64,000 bases of DNA from an uncultured Coriobacteriaceae bacterium (GTDB lineage Bacteria > Actinomycetota > Coriobacteriia > Coriobacteriales > Coriobacteriaceae): the NCBI GenBank assembly GCA_944322305.1, contig CALUOP010000004.1:124001-188000 (forward strand). Direction: 5' to 3'. The notes beneath the pieces are model-generated. The model worked only from the letters and a program-made list of their open reading frames with translations, did not search any database and was not told where the DNA came from. Shown one piece after another: positions 6,268 to 55,047 of this stretch. A program made the position numbers and the translations under genes. The stretch's first letter is position 1. Every line of letters begins with the position of its first letter.

Positions 6268-7935
6268 TCAGACCTCCATGACGACCGGGATGATCATCGG
6301 CCGCGAATGGGTGCGGTTCCACAGGAAGTTGGTGAGCGAGTCGCGCACCGCCTTGCGCACGGCATCGGTGCCCGTGGTGAAGTTGAAGGAGCCCTTCTCG
6401 ATGGTGCGCAGGATAGCCTCGTTGGCGTCCACGGTGAAGGCGTCGTCGGTGGAGAAGCTCACGCCGCGGCTGGAGAACTCGATGCCCTCCACGCGGTTGT
6501 GCTTGGGAGAGACGGTGACGACCACGGTTACCAAGCCGTCGTTGGCGAGCTTCTGGCGGTCGCGCAGCACCACCGGGTCCGCGTCGGCGATGCGCAAGCC
6601 GTCCACGTACACCACGCCCGAGTCGACCGACGGGCCCACCTTCACGCGCCCGTCGCGCATCTCGAGCGTGTCGCCGTTGTCGAGCACGAAGATGTTCTCG
6701 CGCGGGATGCCCATCTTCTCGCCCAGCTCGGCGTGGGCGCGCAGGTGCACCGCCTCGCCGTGTACCGGCATGAAGTAGGCCGGGTGCGTCATGGCGAGCA
6801 TGAGCTTGAGCTCCTCCTGGGAGCCGTGGCCCGAGACGTGCACGAGCATCTTGGTCTTGTCGTACACCTCGCAGCCCAGCTTAGCCAAGTTGTTGACGAC
6901 CTGCTGGACGGCCTTCTCGTTGCCCGGGACGGGCGTGGCCGAGATGATGACGGTGTCGCCCTCGTGGATGGAGAGGGTCTTGTGCTCGCCGTTGGCCATG
7001 CGCGACAGCGCCGAGAGCGGCTCGCCCTGGGACCCGGTGCACATGACGACGATCTTCTCCTCAGGGATGGAGCCCACGTCGAAGGCGTCGACTATGGAGT
7101 CCTCAGGCACCTTGAGGTAGCCCAGTTCGCGCGCCACGCTGGTGTTGGTGAGCATGGAGCGGCCCGTCACCACGACCTTGCGGCCGCAGCCCACCGCGGC
7201 GTCGCAGATCTGCTGCAGGCGGTGGATGTGGGAGGAGAAGCTCGCCACGAAGACGCGCCCCTCGGCGTTCTTGATGATGTGGCGCAGGCTCGAGCCCACC
7301 TCGGCCTCAGACTTGGTGAAGCCGGGGACGGTGGCGTTGGTAGAGTCGGAGAGCAGAAGGTCGATGCCCTGGCGCGCGAACTTGTTGATGAGCTCGTAGT
7401 CGGGGCGCACGCCGTCGATGGGCGTCTGGTCGAGCTTGAAGTCGCCGGTGTGCATGACCGAGCCCTGCGGGGTGCGGATAAACACGCCCAGCGCCGCGGG
7501 GATGGAGTGGGTCATGGAGAAGAAGTCGATCGAGATGCAGCCCAGGTTGATGTGGGCACCGTCTTTGACCTCGCGCATCTTGACGTTCTTCAGGCGGTGC
7601 TCGGCGAGTTTGCCCTCGATGAAGCCGAGCGTGAGCTTGCTCGAGAAGATCGGCACGCGAACGTTCAGGTCCTGCAGCAGGTACGGCAGGGCGCCGGTGT
7701 GGTCCTCGTGGCCGTGGGTGATCACGATGCCGCGCAGCTTGTCCTCGTTCTCGAGCACGTAGCTGTAGTCGGGCAGCACCAAGTCGATGCCGGGCTGGGA
7801 GTCGTCAGGGAACATGAGGCCGGCGTCAACAAGCACCATGTCGTTGCCGCACTCGAAGGCGGTCATGTTCTTGCCGATGCCGTCCAAACCACCCAGCGGG
7901 ATGATGCGCAGCGGCGGGTTCTTGCGTTTTGCCAT
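6268..7935 (-). CDS. rnj: Ribonuclease J
   Basis: A 555-aa metallo-beta-lactamase/beta-CASP nuclease for mRNA decay and rRNA maturation (endonuclease and 5'-3' exonuclease). The metal-binding motif HGHEDH lies at residues 74-79, followed by a beta-CASP domain (FVASFSSHIHRLQQ), HVSGHG, and a C-terminal RNase J domain. The start at 7935 (MAKRKNPPLR) is chosen over an upstream in-frame ATG at 8052 because AAGGAG sits 10 bases before it and homology begins there; the upstream codons fall in the leader. It heads the rnj-ftsK-rodZ-yajQ-rimO-pgsA run. Confidence 0.95.
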   Translation of the reverse strand: MAKRKNPPLRIIPLGGLDGIGKNMTAFECGNDMVLVDAGLMFPDDSQPGIDLVLPDYSYVLENEDKLRGIVITHGHEDHTGALPYLLQDLNVRVPIFSSKLTLGFIEGKLAEHRLKNVKMREVKDGAHINLGCISIDFFSMTHSIPAALGVFIRTPQGSVMHTGDFKLDQTPIDGVRPDYELINKFARQGIDLLLSDSTNATVPGFTKSEAEVGSSLRHIIKNAEGRVFVASFSSHIHRLQQICDAAVGCGRKVVVTGRSMLTNTSVARELGYLKVPEDSIVDAFDVGSIPEEKIVVMCTGSQGEPLSALSRMANGEHKTLSIHEGDTVIISATPVPGNEKAVQQVVNNLAKLGCEVYDKTKMLVHVSGHGSQEELKLMLAMTHPAYFMPVHGEAVHLRAHAELGEKMGIPRENIFVLDNGDTLEMRDGRVKVGPSVDSGVVYVDGLRIADADPVVLRDRQKLANDGLVTVVVTVSPKHNRVEGIEFSSRGVSFSTDDAFTVDANEAILRTIEKGSFNFTTGTDAVRKAVRDSLTNFLWNRTHSRPMIIPVVMEV

Positions 7936-8047
7936 AGTGAGAAATACTCCTTTCGGAACGCGGTTGCTATGCAAACAGCGGCTGTATGCCGCAAACGGAG
8001 CAGGTGAGGCGCGAGAGAGATAAGGCGCCATGTTCGCAGTGTTCAAT

Positions 8048-8074
8048 ATCATACCGGTTCCGCAGGTATTTCAA
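8048..8074 (-). promoter_or_regulatory. Probable rnj promoter
   Basis: On the minus strand a TTGAAA -35 box (8069-8074) precedes TATGAT (8048-8053) with 15 bases between. An alternative -10, GATATT, gives 18 bases. Either implies a leader of about 100 nt before the rnj start. Called by eye. Confidence 0.45.
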
Positions 8075-8146
8075 ACGGCCACGTGCAAACCTAACAGGAA
8101 GTACGGAAAAGGCAGCGACGCCTCTTGAGGTCCAAGCGAATGCGCC

Positions 8147-8218
8147 GGCCGGGACAGGGGTTATGAACCCGAAATCTGTCCGATATCAGATTTCGGGTTC
8201 ATAACCCCTGTCCCGGCC
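8147..8218. repeat. Palindromic element A of the conserved-loop hairpin family
   Basis: A perfect 32-bp inverted repeat (8147-8178 with 8187-8218) around an 8-nt loop TCCGATAT. The loop, read on the opposite strand as ATATCGGA, matches the loop of four other elements in the window, whereas the stem sequence does not. At the position of the 3-nt internal loop in the other copies (AAC/GTT) this copy is fully paired. It lies between the rnj promoter and the tandem elements B and C. The 7936-8490 gap holds no credible gene. Confidence 0.85.
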
Positions 8219-8274
8219 TCATCGCCTTCTCCTTACGTGCGAGAGGCACAGCATGTTTTTGCTCGCAACAAAAA

Positions 8275-8341
8275 GGGGGCCGGTCGACAGAGTTCCTGAT
8301 TTTGTTATCGGGCAAAATCAGGGTTCCTATCGACCGGGCCC
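8275..8341. repeat. Palindromic element B of the conserved-loop hairpin family
   Basis: An imperfect stem (8275-8304 with 8313-8341) closes on loop TTATCGGG. The inner 10-bp stem ends in TTTTG/CAAAA as in C, D and E, and a small internal loop with GTT interrupts the stem at the family position. Together with its left flank it is a diverged tandem copy of element C, with a unit of about 110 bp. Confidence 0.85.
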
Positions 8342-8386
8342 TAACGCATGCGAGAAGGACAATGCATTTTCGCCTGCAACGAAGAA

Positions 8387-8454
8387 GGGGGCCGACCGTA
8401 AGGGCTCTGGATTTTGATATCGGGCAAAATCCAGCTTCCTTACGGTCGACCCCC
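8387..8454. repeat. Palindromic element C of the conserved-loop hairpin family
   Basis: Stem 8387-8416 with 8425-8454, loop ATATCGGG, inner arm TTTTG/CAAAA, and a 3-nt internal mismatch at the family position. It starts 36 bases after the pnp stop on the minus strand. In pnp-derived RNA the loop would read CCCGATAT, the same sense seen for elements D and E relative to their upstream genes. It could serve as the 3' end or stability element of pnp mRNA. Confidence 0.85.
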
Positions 8455-8490
8455 TATGCGTGCGCTAAAAACGCAGGCTATGCGAAGGGT

Positions 8491-10788
8491 TTACCCCTCG
8501 TGGTGACGGCGCGGACGACGCTCGGGACGGTCGCCGCGGTCGCCTCCGCGATAGCCGCCACGGTCACGGTCGGTGCGCTCGCGGCGCTCACCGCCCGCGT
8601 AGGGGCGGCCGCTGTTGCGGCCCGGGCGCGCAGAGCGGTCGCGGTTGCCTGCGAAGTTGGTGTGGTTGCCGCGGCCGTCACCGGAACCGGCGGGCGCGTG
8701 CGGCTTCTCGAGGCGGTCGAGCGAGATCTTGCCCTTCTCGTCCACGTCGATGACCTTGACCTTGACCTCGTCGCCGATGTTGAGGACGTCCTCGACCTTG
8801 TCGACGCGGCCCACGGCGACGCGGCTGATGTGCAGCAGGCCGTCCTTGCCTGGCAGCAGGTTCACGAACGCGCCGAAGGGCTGGATGGAGACCACGCGGC
8901 CGGTGTACTCCTCGCCGATCTCGGGCACCTTGACGATAAGCTCGATGCGCTCCTTGGCAGCCGTGACGGAGGCCTCGTCGCCGCCGATGTAGACGGTGCC
9001 GTCCTCCTGGATGTCCACCGAGGCGCCGGTCTCGTCCTGGATGCCGCGGATGGTCTTGCCGCCGGAGCCGATGACGTCGCGGATCTTGTCCGTGTCGATC
9101 TTGATCGAGATGATCTGCGGGGCAGTCGGGCGCACGGTCAGGCGCGGCTCGGGCACGACCTCGAGCATCTTGCCCAGGATGAAGGCGCGGCCCTGCTTGG
9201 CCTGCTCGAGCGCCTGGGCGAGGATCTCGGGTGTGAGGCCGGTGGCCTTGTTGTCCATCTGCATGGCGGTGATGCCGCGCTCGGTGCCGGTCACCTTGAA
9301 GTCCATGTCGCCGAGGAAGTCCTCGAGGCCCTGGATGTCAGAGAGGACGACGGTCTTGCCCTCCTCCTGGATGAGGCCCATGGCGATGCCGGAGACGGGG
9401 CGCTTGATCGGCACGCCGCCGTCCATCAGCGCAAGGCAGCTCGCGCAGGTGGACGCCATGGACGAGGAGCCGTTGGATTCCATGACCTCGGAGACCACGC
9501 GGATGGCGTAGGGGAACTCCTCCTCAGAGGGGAGCACGGGCAGCAGCGCGCGCTCTGCCAGGTTGCCGTGGCCGATCTCGCGGCGCTTGGGGCTGCCGAT
9601 GCGGCCGGTCTCGCCGGTGCAGTACGGCGGGAAGTTGTAGTGGTGCATGTAGCGCTTACCCTCGACCGGCTCGATGGTGTCGAGGCGCTGCCACTCGTTG
9701 AGCATGCCGAGCGCGAGCACCGAGAGCACCTGGGTCTGGCCGCGCTGGAACAGGCCGGAGCCGTGCACGAGCGGCAAGTAGCTGCCCTTCACCATGATCG
9801 GGCGGATCTCGTCGGCAGCGCGGCCGTCAACGCGCTCGCCGGTCTCGACGACCATCGTGCGCATGGCCTTCTTCTCGAGCGCCTTGAGCTCGACCGGGAT
9901 CTCGCGGGCCCAGGTCTCCTGCTCCTCGTCGGAGAACTCGGCGCGGATAGCCTCCTTGAGCTCCTCGACGTGGGCGATGCGCGAAAGCTTGTCGGCGTCG
10001 CGCAGGGCGGCGGCCATCTCGTCGTAGTGGGCGAAGACGCGCTCGTGGACCTCCTCCACCGGCTCGTCGAGCGGGTAGTCCTTCGGCTCGATAGGGCCGT
10101 TGACCTCTTCCCAGGCAGCCACGAAGTCCTTCTGGGCCTGGCAGAACGCGCCGATGGCCTCCTGCCCGAACGCCATGGCGGCCAGCATGTCCTCCTCAGA
10201 GACCTCGTCAGCCGAGGCCTCGACCATGGAGATGAAGTCGGCGGTGCCGGCGAGCTCGAGGTCGAGGTCGGAGTTCTCGCGCTCCTCGTAGGTGGGGTTG
10301 ACGATGAACTCGCCCGTCTCCTTGCTGCGGCCGATGCGCACGCAGGCAAGCGGGCCCTCGAACGGCACGCCGCCGAGCGTGAGGGCGAGGCTCGCGCCCA
10401 TGACGCAGATCACGTCGAAGGGGTTCTTCTGGTCGGCAACGAGCGAGGTCGCCACGATCTGAACCTCGTTGCGGAAGCCGGCCGGGAAGCTTGGGCGGAT
10501 CGGGCGGTCGATCATGCGGGCCGTGAGGGTGGCCTTCTCGGAGGGACGGCCCTCGCGCTTGAGGTAGCCGCCGGGGATGCGGCCCACGGCGTACATCTTC
10601 TCGTTGAAGTCAACGGTCAGCGGGAAGAAGTCGTAGTTCTTGCGCTCTTTTGAGACCACCGCGGTGAGAAGCATGGTGGTGTCGCCCTGCTTCACGAGCG
10701 CGGCACCCGTTGCCTGCTTGGCGAGCTCGCCCGCCTCGAGGGTGTAGGTCTTGCCGTAGAGCTCGAAGGTCTTGCTTACTTTGGTCAT
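8491..10788 (-). CDS. pnp: Polyribonucleotide nucleotidyltransferase (PNPase)
   Basis: A 3'-5' phosphorolytic exoribonuclease of about 765 aa. Two RNase PH-like core domains are joined by a helical domain. The second core carries the conserved MDGGVPIKRPVSGIAMGL region, then come a KH domain (GSGGKTIRGI) and an S1 domain. Beyond S1 is a tail of about 60 residues rich in Arg, Gly and Asp, longer and more RG-rich than in E. coli. The second of two consecutive ATGs (10786-10788) is preferred because GAGGA abuts the first. It is immediately downstream of rpsO, the classic order, with three leader hairpins between. Confidence 0.95.
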   Translation of the reverse strand: MTKVSKTFELYGKTYTLEAGELAKQATGAALVKQGDTTMLLTAVVSKERKNYDFFPLTVDFNEKMYAVGRIPGGYLKREGRPSEKATLTARMIDRPIRPSFPAGFRNEVQIVATSLVADQKNPFDVICVMGASLALTLGGVPFEGPLACVRIGRSKETGEFIVNPTYEERENSDLDLELAGTADFISMVEASADEVSEEDMLAAMAFGQEAIGAFCQAQKDFVAAWEEVNGPIEPKDYPLDEPVEEVHERVFAHYDEMAAALRDADKLSRIAHVEELKEAIRAEFSDEEQETWAREIPVELKALEKKAMRTMVVETGERVDGRAADEIRPIMVKGSYLPLVHGSGLFQRGQTQVLSVLALGMLNEWQRLDTIEPVEGKRYMHHYNFPPYCTGETGRIGSPKRREIGHGNLAERALLPVLPSEEEFPYAIRVVSEVMESNGSSSMASTCASCLALMDGGVPIKRPVSGIAMGLIQEEGKTVVLSDIQGLEDFLGDMDFKVTGTERGITAMQMDNKATGLTPEILAQALEQAKQGRAFILGKMLEVVPEPRLTVRPTAPQIISIKIDTDKIRDVIGSGGKTIRGIQDETGASVDIQEDGTVYIGGDEASVTAAKERIELIVKVPEIGEEYTGRVVSIQPFGAFVNLLPGKDGLLHISRVAVGRVDKVEDVLNIGDEVKVKVIDVDEKGKISLDRLEKPHAPAGSGDGRGNHTNFAGNRDRSARPGRNSGRPYAGGERRERTDRDRGGYRGGDRGDRPERRPRRHHEG

Positions 10789-10804
10789 CATTCCTCTTTC
10801 ATCT

Positions 10805-13824: not shown

Positions 13825-13978
13825 AGCGCAACCCCCTCTCGCCTACCGGCTGAACCATTCACTATTACACACAACCCCTCAGCACCGGGCCCGCTCAAAC
13901 CCAACGCAAAAATGCAAGCCAAGCGACCTGCAGCCACCGATTTCAGCGAGAAGGGGCGGCGGAATAGCCATGCGCAGA

Positions 13979-14087
13979 AGGCCGGGGCATATCGTCCCGC
14001 GCGCAGTTTTGCAGCCGCAGGAGATGCCGTTCCCGGCATCTCCGTCGCGGCGAAGCTGTTTGAGCACGGGATGATATGCCCCGGCCT
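13979..14087. repeat. Structured 109-bp element F1 (era-recO gap)
   Basis: Outer arms 13980-13999 and 14067-14086 pair over 20 bp with a single G:T, extended by one further pair. A central perfect 10-bp hairpin (14020-14029 with 14034-14043) has loop TTCC. A homologous element lies at 54866-54974, and at least two positions differ between copies by paired (compensatory) changes. It lies just after the era stop. The rest of the 13825-14136 gap shows no gene. Confidence 0.85.
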
Positions 14088-14136
14088 CCCCGGTTCGCAT
14101 CGTCCCGCCGCCCCCCGAGCGCAAGGGAAAACGTGG

Positions 14137-42542: not shown

Positions 42543-42612
42543 GGAGCGGGGGGCGATAAGAACCTCGATTTTGCCCGATATCAAAATCGAGAACCTTATC
42601 GCCCCCCGCTCC
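42543..42612. repeat. Palindromic element D of the conserved-loop hairpin family
   Basis: Arms 42543-42573 and 42582-42612 pair over 31 positions except a 3-nt AAC/AAC internal loop. The terminal loop is CCCGATAT, the exact inverse complement of the element C loop. It starts 61 bases after the MATE stop. A smaller hairpin (GGCGATA/TATCGCC) lies just before it. The 42482-42852 gap holds only hairpins and no gene. Confidence 0.85.
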
Positions 42613-42753: not shown

Positions 42754-42825
42754 AAAGGCCCCGGAGGATAAGGTTCCGAATTTTGATAACGGGCAAAATT
42801 CGGGTTCTTATCCTCCGGGGCCTTT
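42754..42825. repeat. Palindromic element E of the conserved-loop hairpin family
   Basis: Arms 42754-42785 and 42794-42825 pair over 32 positions except a GTT/GTT internal loop. The terminal loop is ATAACGGG and the inner arm TTTTG/CAAAA. It lies 28 bases after the rpoD stop on the minus strand and is followed there by TTTC, so it probably also acts as the rpoD terminator. Confidence 0.85.
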
Positions 42826-42852: not shown

Positions 42853-44157
42853 TTAGGACAGATAATCCTTCAGGCGTCCGGAGCGGCTCGGGTGGCGCAG
42901 CTTCGCAAGCGTCTTGCTCTCGATCTGCCGGATGCGCTCGCGCGTGACGCCGAACTCGCGCCCAACCTCCTCGAGGGTGCGCGGATGTCCGTCAACCAAG
43001 CCGAAGCGCAGCTCGATAACCTTGCGCTCACGGTCGGCCAGGCTGTCGAGCACCTGGGAAAGCTGCTCCTGCAGCATCGAGAAGCTCGCCGCGTCCGGCG
43101 GCACAACGGCCTGCGAGTCCTCGATGAAGTCGCCCAGCTGGGAGTCCTCCTCCTCGCCGATGGGCGTCTCGAGGCTCACGGGCTCCTGGGAGATCTTCTG
43201 GATCTCGCGCACGCGCTCGGCGCTCATGTCCATCTCGGCGCCGATCTCCTCGGGGGTGGGGTCGCGCCCCAAATCCTGCAAAAGCTGGCGCTGCACGCGC
43301 ACGAGCTTGTTGATCGTCTCGACCATGTGCACGGGGATGCGGATCGTGCGCGCCTGGTCGGCGATGGCGCGGGTAATGGCCTGGCGGATCCACCAGGTGG
43401 CGTAGGTGGAGAACTTGAAGCCCTTCTGGTAGTCGAACTTCTCGACCGCGCGGATAAGGCCCAGGTTGCCCTCCTGGATGAGGTCCAAGAACAGCATACC
43501 GCGGCCCACGTAGCGCTTGGCGATGGAGACCACCAGGCGCAGGTTGGCCGAGATGAGCGCCTGCTTGGCGTCCAGGCCCACCTGCTCGATGCGCATGAGG
43601 CGGCGCTTCTCGGCGCGGGTAAGGGTGGCCTCGCCCATCTCCTCGGCCTCGAGCTTCTTGGTGGCGTCCAGGCCGGCCTCGATCTTCATGGCCAGGTCAA
43701 CCTCGTCGGCAGCGGTGAGCAGGTCGACCTTGCCGATCTCCTTCAGGTACATGCGCACCGGGTCGCCGGTGAGCATGACGGTGGAGGCGTCCACGCCGCG
43801 CTGGCGCGCGCGATGGGTACGGTTGCGCACCACGGTGGAACGCTTGGTCTTCGCAGCGCCCATCTCGCGCTCGGCCACCTTGGCGAGCTTGGCATCCTGA
43901 TCCTCAACGTCCTCGTCGTCATCCAAGCTGGAGACATCGTCGTCCATGGAGTCGTCCTCGACGTTTTGCGAGACGATCTCAACGCCCTTGTCGCGCAGGA
44001 ACTGATACACGGCGTTCAGCTGGCTGTCGGTTACGTCGATGTCCTTCAAGACCACCTGGATGTCGTCTTCGGTAACGCTGCCTCCTTCGGAGCCGAGCGT
44101 GAGAAGCTTCTCGATGCATGCGTCGAGTTCAGTGTTCTTCGTGGTCTTCTTTGGCAC
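42853..44157 (-). CDS. rpoD: RNA polymerase primary sigma factor
   Basis: A 434-aa housekeeping sigma factor. Region 1.1-like and acidic linker (residues 1-110), region 1.2 ([16 protein letters not shown]), region 2 ([16 protein letters not shown], then [14 protein letters not shown]), region 3, and region 4 with [20 protein letters not shown]. The start is taken as GTG at 44155-44157 because AAAGGGG lies just before it; a TTG five codons upstream overlaps that site. It follows dnaG, the classical macromolecular-synthesis order. Confidence 0.95.
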
Positions 44158-54824: not shown

Positions 54825-54865
54825 TCGAGCAGTCAACATCATCAGGACATGTCAACGTCAGGGCT

Positions 54866-54974
54866 GGGGCCGGGTATATCGTCCCGCGCGCAGTTCTGCA
54901 GACGCAGGACATGCCGTTCCCGGCATGTCCGTCGCGTCGAAGCTGTTTGAGCACGGGATGATATGCCCGGCCCC
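54866..54974. repeat. Structured 109-bp element F2 (leuS-rimP gap)
   Basis: Outer arms 54866-54886 and 54954-54974 pair over 21 positions with two G:T pairs. The central 10-bp hairpin (54907-54916 with 54921-54930) has the same TTCC loop as F1 at 13979-14087. It lies downstream of leuS. The rest of the 54629-55047 gap has no gene. Confidence 0.85.
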
Positions 54975-55047
54975 AACCCGTCAAGCACAAGGCCCGCGAC
55001 CGTTTTCCGATCGCGTGCCCTTCGGGTTGGCGCTTATCGCACAAAGC

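Follow-up and report, generated by a model that had tools for sequence, protein, structure and literature searches.

REP and BIME elements are intergenic, dispersed palindromes that form inverted doublets of preferred polarity, belong to families of few species and show complementary changes in their stems, and a role in termination and mRNA stability has been proposed for them, as stated in passages of PMC3733652 and PMC2817692. The hairpins described here resemble them in being dispersed and intergenic, in forming inverted doublets, in being confined to two species and in the complementary changes of their stems. Integron attC sites keep the shape of a folded single strand while their sequence varies; our hairpins likewise keep shape over sequence, but they do not form cassette arrays, and their conserved parts are the loop and a symmetric internal loop. 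In the uptake-sequence terminators of Neisseria and Haemophilus, a dispersed motif sits in gene-end hairpins and the conserved motif is the stem, whereas here the stem varies, the loop is fixed, and the copy number is far lower. Intrinsic terminators, finally, share with these hairpins a GC-rich outer stem, a frequent T-rich tail and a location just past a stop codon; however, they are unrelated in sequence between genes, whereas the hairpins have a common loop, internal loop and core, and many of the hairpin tails are poor in T.

The family is real, covarying and lineage-restricted, and it is dispersed at gene ends in about 46 copies. It would most likely represent a mobile REP-like repeat serving as a candidate transcript terminator or 3' barrier, which would extend the REP/BIME concept to long-stem elements free of the GTAG/CGTC foot in Actinomycetota. 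In open-licence PubMed Central, searched with a few term combinations, no comparable element was found.

Hairpins between pnp and rnj

The locus belongs to a stretch of 64,000 nucleotides (the window, C4:124001-188000) of an uncultured Coriobacteriaceae genome of 2.35 Mb in 15 contigs (G000). A sequence-only reading had noticed here three palindromes, A, B and C, with one loop and unrelated stems, and had placed them between pnp and rnj, a setting confirmed by the match of both genes to NCBIfam models. The features are the following:

6268-7935, minus strand: RNase J gene (rnj), TIGR00649, above its cut-off; next gene downstream
8147-8218, minus strand: hairpin A, perfect 32/32 bp palindrome with the 8-nt loop ATATCGGA on the minus strand
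8276-8341, plus strand: hairpin B, 29-bp stem (79% paired), 3x3 internal loop, 8-nt loop TTATCGGG
8386-8455, plus strand: hairpin C, 31-bp stem (87% paired), 3x3 internal loop, 8-nt loop ATATCGGG
8270-8352 and 8382-8464, plus strand: tandem duplication of B and C, 72% identity over 83 nt, start-to-start distance 112
8491-10791, minus strand: pnp, polyribonucleotide nucleotidyltransferase (NF008805, 930 bits), preceding C and B on the message strand

All three are real hairpins, with stems of 29-32 bp and one type of 8-nt loop. The three-nucleotide internal loop ascribed to all of them is present in B and C, and A is fully paired; the outer stems of A are unlike those of B and C and still paired, and B and C with their flanks do form a diverged tandem copy. 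Hairpin A, antisense to pnp and rnj, has B as its inverted partner. On the message (minus) strand of pnp, C lies 35 nt past the stop codon, and B reads CCCGATAA, followed by the tail CTTTTTGTTG. Hairpin C has a syntenic copy in the nearest species, G001 (L146:4070-4147).

RNA folding gave z-scores of -6.7 to -16.1 for the eight strands folded. A terminator consensus scan of positions 7900-8600, whose stem and loop rule suits such long stems poorly, called none. With Rfam 15, no family exceeded its gathering score at the hairpins, the sole match in the window being a tRNA; the matches to A-C below threshold were mostly to long-hairpin microRNA models.

Each copy is a single hairpin, made of a variable GC-rich outer stem, a core and a symmetric AAC/AAC internal loop, with a stem length of 22-38 bp in the hairpin scan. 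The core of about 46 nt reads GATAAG-AAC-CCGGATTTTG-[CCCGATAT]-CAAAATCCGG-AAC-CTTATC on the message strand, and its consensus on the strand with the loop ATATCGGG is GATAAGGTTCCGGATTTTG-ATATCGGG-CAAAATCCGGGTTCTTATC. On this latter strand GGTTC is present in both arms, which leaves three bases symmetrically mismatched between them.

Eight hairpins passed a scan of the window, five of which carry the family loop: A, B, C and two more copies at a convergent locus:

42543-42612, minus strand: hairpin D, loop ATATCGGG on the minus strand, 61 nt past a plus-strand gene
42754-42825, plus strand: hairpin E, loop ATAACGGG, 27 nt past the stop codon of the minus-strand rpoD-like gene
42853-44157, minus strand: gene of an RpoD-type RNA polymerase sigma factor, its 3' end facing hairpin E

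With up to two mismatches, the core motif occurs 21 times in the window against 6.4 expected, a number that none of 100 shuffles reached; with up to one mismatch, the whole genome contains 62 matches against eight for a reversed control pattern.

Copies in the genome and drift of the stem

A loop search of the genome yielded 36 usable hairpins, from which a covariance model, R1, was built and run on the genome and on 34 stretches, the window included. R1 finds 48 places in G000, 46 of them clear and two decayed (L141 and L142, about 34 bits), the latter being removed before the counts. Neither of the two observations that would have refuted the sequence-only reading was made: the palindromes between pnp and rnj have about 46 further copies in their genome, and their stems are no recent identical duplications.

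The range of the family is narrow. The nearest species, G001, has nine copies, and the covariance-model search found none in G002 and G003, of the same genus. Hairpins are present in two of the 65 genomes of the bacterial family and absent from the other 63, and a sample of the class gave two positive genomes and 294 without out of 296, in a survey whose strict filters and few scored candidates per genome could let weak relatives escape. A virus-borne family was considered and rejected, as no viral contig had the exact pattern. A wider spread was considered after four matches in a contig database; however, two of these are G001 itself, and the other two (Clostridiaceae and Proteobacteria), with no palindrome round the core, were taken as chance.

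In an alignment of 36 copies, built from sequence without fitting to the structure, 92.1% of the cells are paired and both sides have changed in 26 of the 31 pairs. Double-changed cells number 272, against 84 in shuffles, and covariation scores 0.668, while versions with slid partners do not exceed 0.171. In the central outer pairs the two orientations are nearly equal (C-G 18 and G-C 14 at column 10), which indicates that the outer stem is free in sequence. The loop and its closing G-C are nearly fixed across copies, and the invariant or near-invariant columns fall in the loop and the internal loop, which is exactly AAC/AAC in 37 of 52 copies, kept in 47 and closed in five, A among them.

Copies of G000 and G001 were also compared in synteny, being paired through the neighbouring protein. 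The five syntenic pairs that differ show ten compensatory base pairs, four one-sided changes via G.T and ten pairs that have been lost in one of the genomes; another, the seventh, matched by its flanks only, adds three compensatory, two one-sided and three broken, and the hairpins of the pair L116/L143 are identical. Compensation is real, not absolute. The proposal that structure and loop are kept while the stem drifts therefore holds both among paralogues and between the syntenic copies of two species, and the family offers a natural case of a repeat with fixed loop and mismatch positions and a nearly free stem sequence, in one genome and across two species. It makes testable how dispersed palindromes remain complementary, whether by selection on RNA or by template-switch repair.

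Selection on the RNA strand, which should make G.U better tolerated than A.C, was sought in the mispairs of the message strand and does not show there, as G.T (23) and A.C (18) show no clear difference or asymmetry over 52 copies; with arm-templated DNA repair being possible as well, covariation alone is no proof of RNA. Template switching makes and maintains stems, according to part of PMC8794818. Alternatively, the family may be a mobile DNA palindrome. Template-switch repair at replication, and not selection for an RNA, would keep its arms complementary, and the 3'-end site would show only where an insertion is tolerated. We consider this rather unlikely. It would agree with the missing G.U excess among the mispairs and with the fact that four of the 13 compensatory changes between the two species are transversions, unreachable through G.U. 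It would also fit three copies (A at window 8147-8218, L138:13694-13771 and L144:4159-4236) where AAC/AAC is replaced by a paired AAC/GTT, a three-base change possibly copied from the other arm. However, such repair should erase the internal loop too, which 47 of 52 copies keep, and neither the orientation on the message strand nor the T-rich tail described below would follow from it.

Position at gene ends and candidate role

Genes were called with a home-made codon model instead of a standard annotator, and the called genes contain none of the analysed copies. With the CCCGATAT strand taken as the message strand in the orientation counts, it coincides with that of the gene just upstream in 41 of 55 copies (p = 0.0004, the copies not being independent). 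This count joins 38 of 52 parsed copies and three whose loop was not parsed (L124:3852, L135:4009 and L147:4021), which are sense by gene context and were excluded from the tail counts. Sense copies begin 6-155 nt after the stop codon, with a median of 41. All 17 copies at convergent loci have the sense orientation relative to the nearer gene; co-directional genes show a weak bias, with 23 sense and 12 antisense copies between them (p = 0.09).

The tails follow the same orientation. Sense copies have on average 3.21 T in the first eight nucleotides of the tail, against 1.93 in antisense copies (p = 0.0065) and 1.45 on the opposite strand of the same hairpins (p = 2e-5), and tails with at least four T are found in 17 of 38 sense and two of 14 antisense copies. 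Among the 14 pairs of neighbours less than 400 nt apart, 12 are inverted and two tandem, as in BIME-like doublets, and the inverted ones have a single polarity in 12 of 12 (minus-plus 12, plus-plus 2, plus-minus 0).

In the 160-nt flanks, once BLAST matches from an inverted partner hairpin inside the flank were discounted by position, no homology between loci was found except at copies in synteny, at partner hairpins and at three loci that a further repeat adjoins, which points to the hairpin itself as the unit that spread. At L136, as judged by eye, some 200 nt that include the hairpin are missing from the G001 site.

The explanation we favour, with confidence evenly divided, is that of a lineage-specific, REP/BIME-like dispersed hairpin, not a canonical REP, that acts as a candidate terminator or 3' barrier at the 3' ends of genes. 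The copies, which would have dispersed as hairpins, lie in intergenic gaps, mostly just past stop codons, where the long stem, often with a T-rich tail, would end transcription and/or shield the mRNA 3' end from exonucleases, the inverted pairs serving both directions of transcription. The stem would drift because pairing alone is required of it, and the loop and internal loop would stay because they are read by a putative factor, be it a mobilising enzyme or a binding protein. The number of copies, their covariation, site, orientation, tail bias and restricted range and the unrelated flanks are observed; termination or 3' protection, dispersal in hairpin form and the loop-reading factor are what we infer. 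The internal loop weakens the stem of the message strand, which is unusual in a pure terminator. Also against the favoured reading stand the many sense tails poor in T (fewer than four in 21 of 38), the weak bias between co-directional genes, the terminator scan with no call at A-C, the nine G000 sites that have a plain terminator-like hairpin as well, and the failure to find a mobilising enzyme among those searched for. The family also makes testable how gene ends get taken over by repeats.

The constancy of the loop could have another meaning. A trans-acting factor, such as an RNA-binding protein, a nuclease or a cruciform-binding protein, might read CCCGATAT together with AAC/AAC, in which case the roughly 46 genes would form a 3'-end regulon and the outer stem would be a scaffold. 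No other part comes near the constancy of the loop and the internal loop, the latter in its exact form in 37 of 52 copies, and a terminator alone requires neither of them; besides, the ten upstream genes that were profiled, which include rpoD, dnaA, glyS, tyrS, rplQ and nrdD, contain, together with pnp, housekeeping genes. However, the internal loop is closed in five of 52 copies, including A, two congeners do without the family, which would be unusual if core genes made up the regulon, and no candidate factor was found; a regulon of this type appears rather unlikely.

Going back to the terminator or 3' barrier, a simple rule for plain terminator-like hairpins within 150 nt of the stop codon identified them at 11 of 27 sites in G003, 10 of 31 in G001 and nine of 32 in G000. 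The insertion of the core into older terminators was considered and remains unproven, as the orthologous sites do not show the same outer stem minus the core.

At L118, in a single case judged by eye, a G001 terminator survives in G000 as its 3' half only, as though arrival of the hairpins had been followed by decay of the older terminator.

Mobilising enzymes and other repeats

The hairpins are REP-like in their working, and we do not file them as REP. Their stems of about 30 bp contrast with the 5-13 bp given as the REP range in the part of PMC3733652 that deals with it, and, contrary to REP elements, they have a symmetric internal loop and an 8-nt loop that is long and conserved, and are strongly biased to the message strand just past stop codons. 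Within eight nucleotides of the foot, GTAG and CTAC were found in none of 52 copies, CGTC in four and GACG in three. Contrary also to REPs linked to a RAYT, the transposase gene has no inverted flanking copies at either of the two RAYT loci:

L086:1075-1869 (G000, C4 near 265 kb), minus strand: RAYT-like gene, single copy
L087:1462-2205 (G001), plus strand: RAYT-like gene, single copy

The neighbours of this gene are presumably phosphoglycerate-mutase-like and secG-like genes. G000 and G001 have one such Y1 transposase each and the hairpin-free G002 and G003 have none, and the protein's best NCBIfam model is NF047646 (REP_Tyr_transpos), where it scores 71 and 65 bits against a required 80. Inverted doublets are, moreover, typical of REPs according to part of PMC2817692. 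The hairpins might accordingly be the REP elements of the single RAYT of the genome, moved as folded single strands. However, the gene is flanked by other repeats, different in each genome: in G000 by GGGGACGTGTTCCA repeats, with 13 matches at up to one mismatch in G000 and none in G001, and in G001 by a different one. Moreover, Y1 genes are present in 53 of the 65 genomes of the family, against two with hairpins, and the GTAG foot is absent. The RAYT was therefore set aside as the mobiliser, and we regard its involvement as very unlikely.

Two further candidates were rejected: a retro-element, as the four congeneric genomes have no reverse transcriptase domain, and an integron, as none of the four has an integrase above the cut-off, other tyrosine recombinases matching weakly. 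Among the enzymes searched for, none was found that would mobilise the hairpins.

The same genomes as the hairpins contain another structured repeat, about 130 nt long. Its internal GCGCAGTTCTGCAG and GAAGCTGTTTGAGCAC are fixed, and its outer, middle and tip helices vary yet pair. By exact pattern it occurs in two of the 65 family genomes, seven times in G000 and 14 in G001, and the seven loci scanned, L120, L124 and L167 among them, gave no Rfam match. Its copies include:

13971-14097 and 54858-54984 of the window, plus strand
L120:4068-4193
L124:8456-8582, minus strand
L145:4419-4545
L160, and L167 with two copies

Since this element and the hairpins, at least two unrelated families, occur in the same two genomes and have the same design, with fixed loops or internal loops and sequence-free helices, one machinery could read folded single strands by their loop geometry, disperse both families and mark gene 3' ends. 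Such a candidate two-genome system, which would be a new one, seems quite improbable to us.

Over about 9 kb, G000 and G001 are 98-100% identical, against about 87% alongside; this block runs from L116:4038 on (C1, approximately 323037-332000) and corresponds to L143/L231 in G001. It begins at the base of the hairpin of L116/L143 and includes genes for a LysR-type regulator and a radical SAM/SPASM protein. An island with a hairpin end was considered and rejected, as no recombinase was found among its six profiled proteins and the right-hand border fades out within a gene; for this recent exchange, a homologous one is likelier than an island.

The same design was sought in 400 kb of a genome of another genus (G058), which gave instead recurring hairpin families with kept stems; several conserved-stem palindromic families, such as that with CTTACATGCCGTTTTACGCAATAAGAG, are found there at L221-L228. 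In G001, past the stop codons at L152, L154 and L172, a recurring hairpin round AATCGCACCGAAGGCAT was seen by eye, with similar stems and a T-rich tail.
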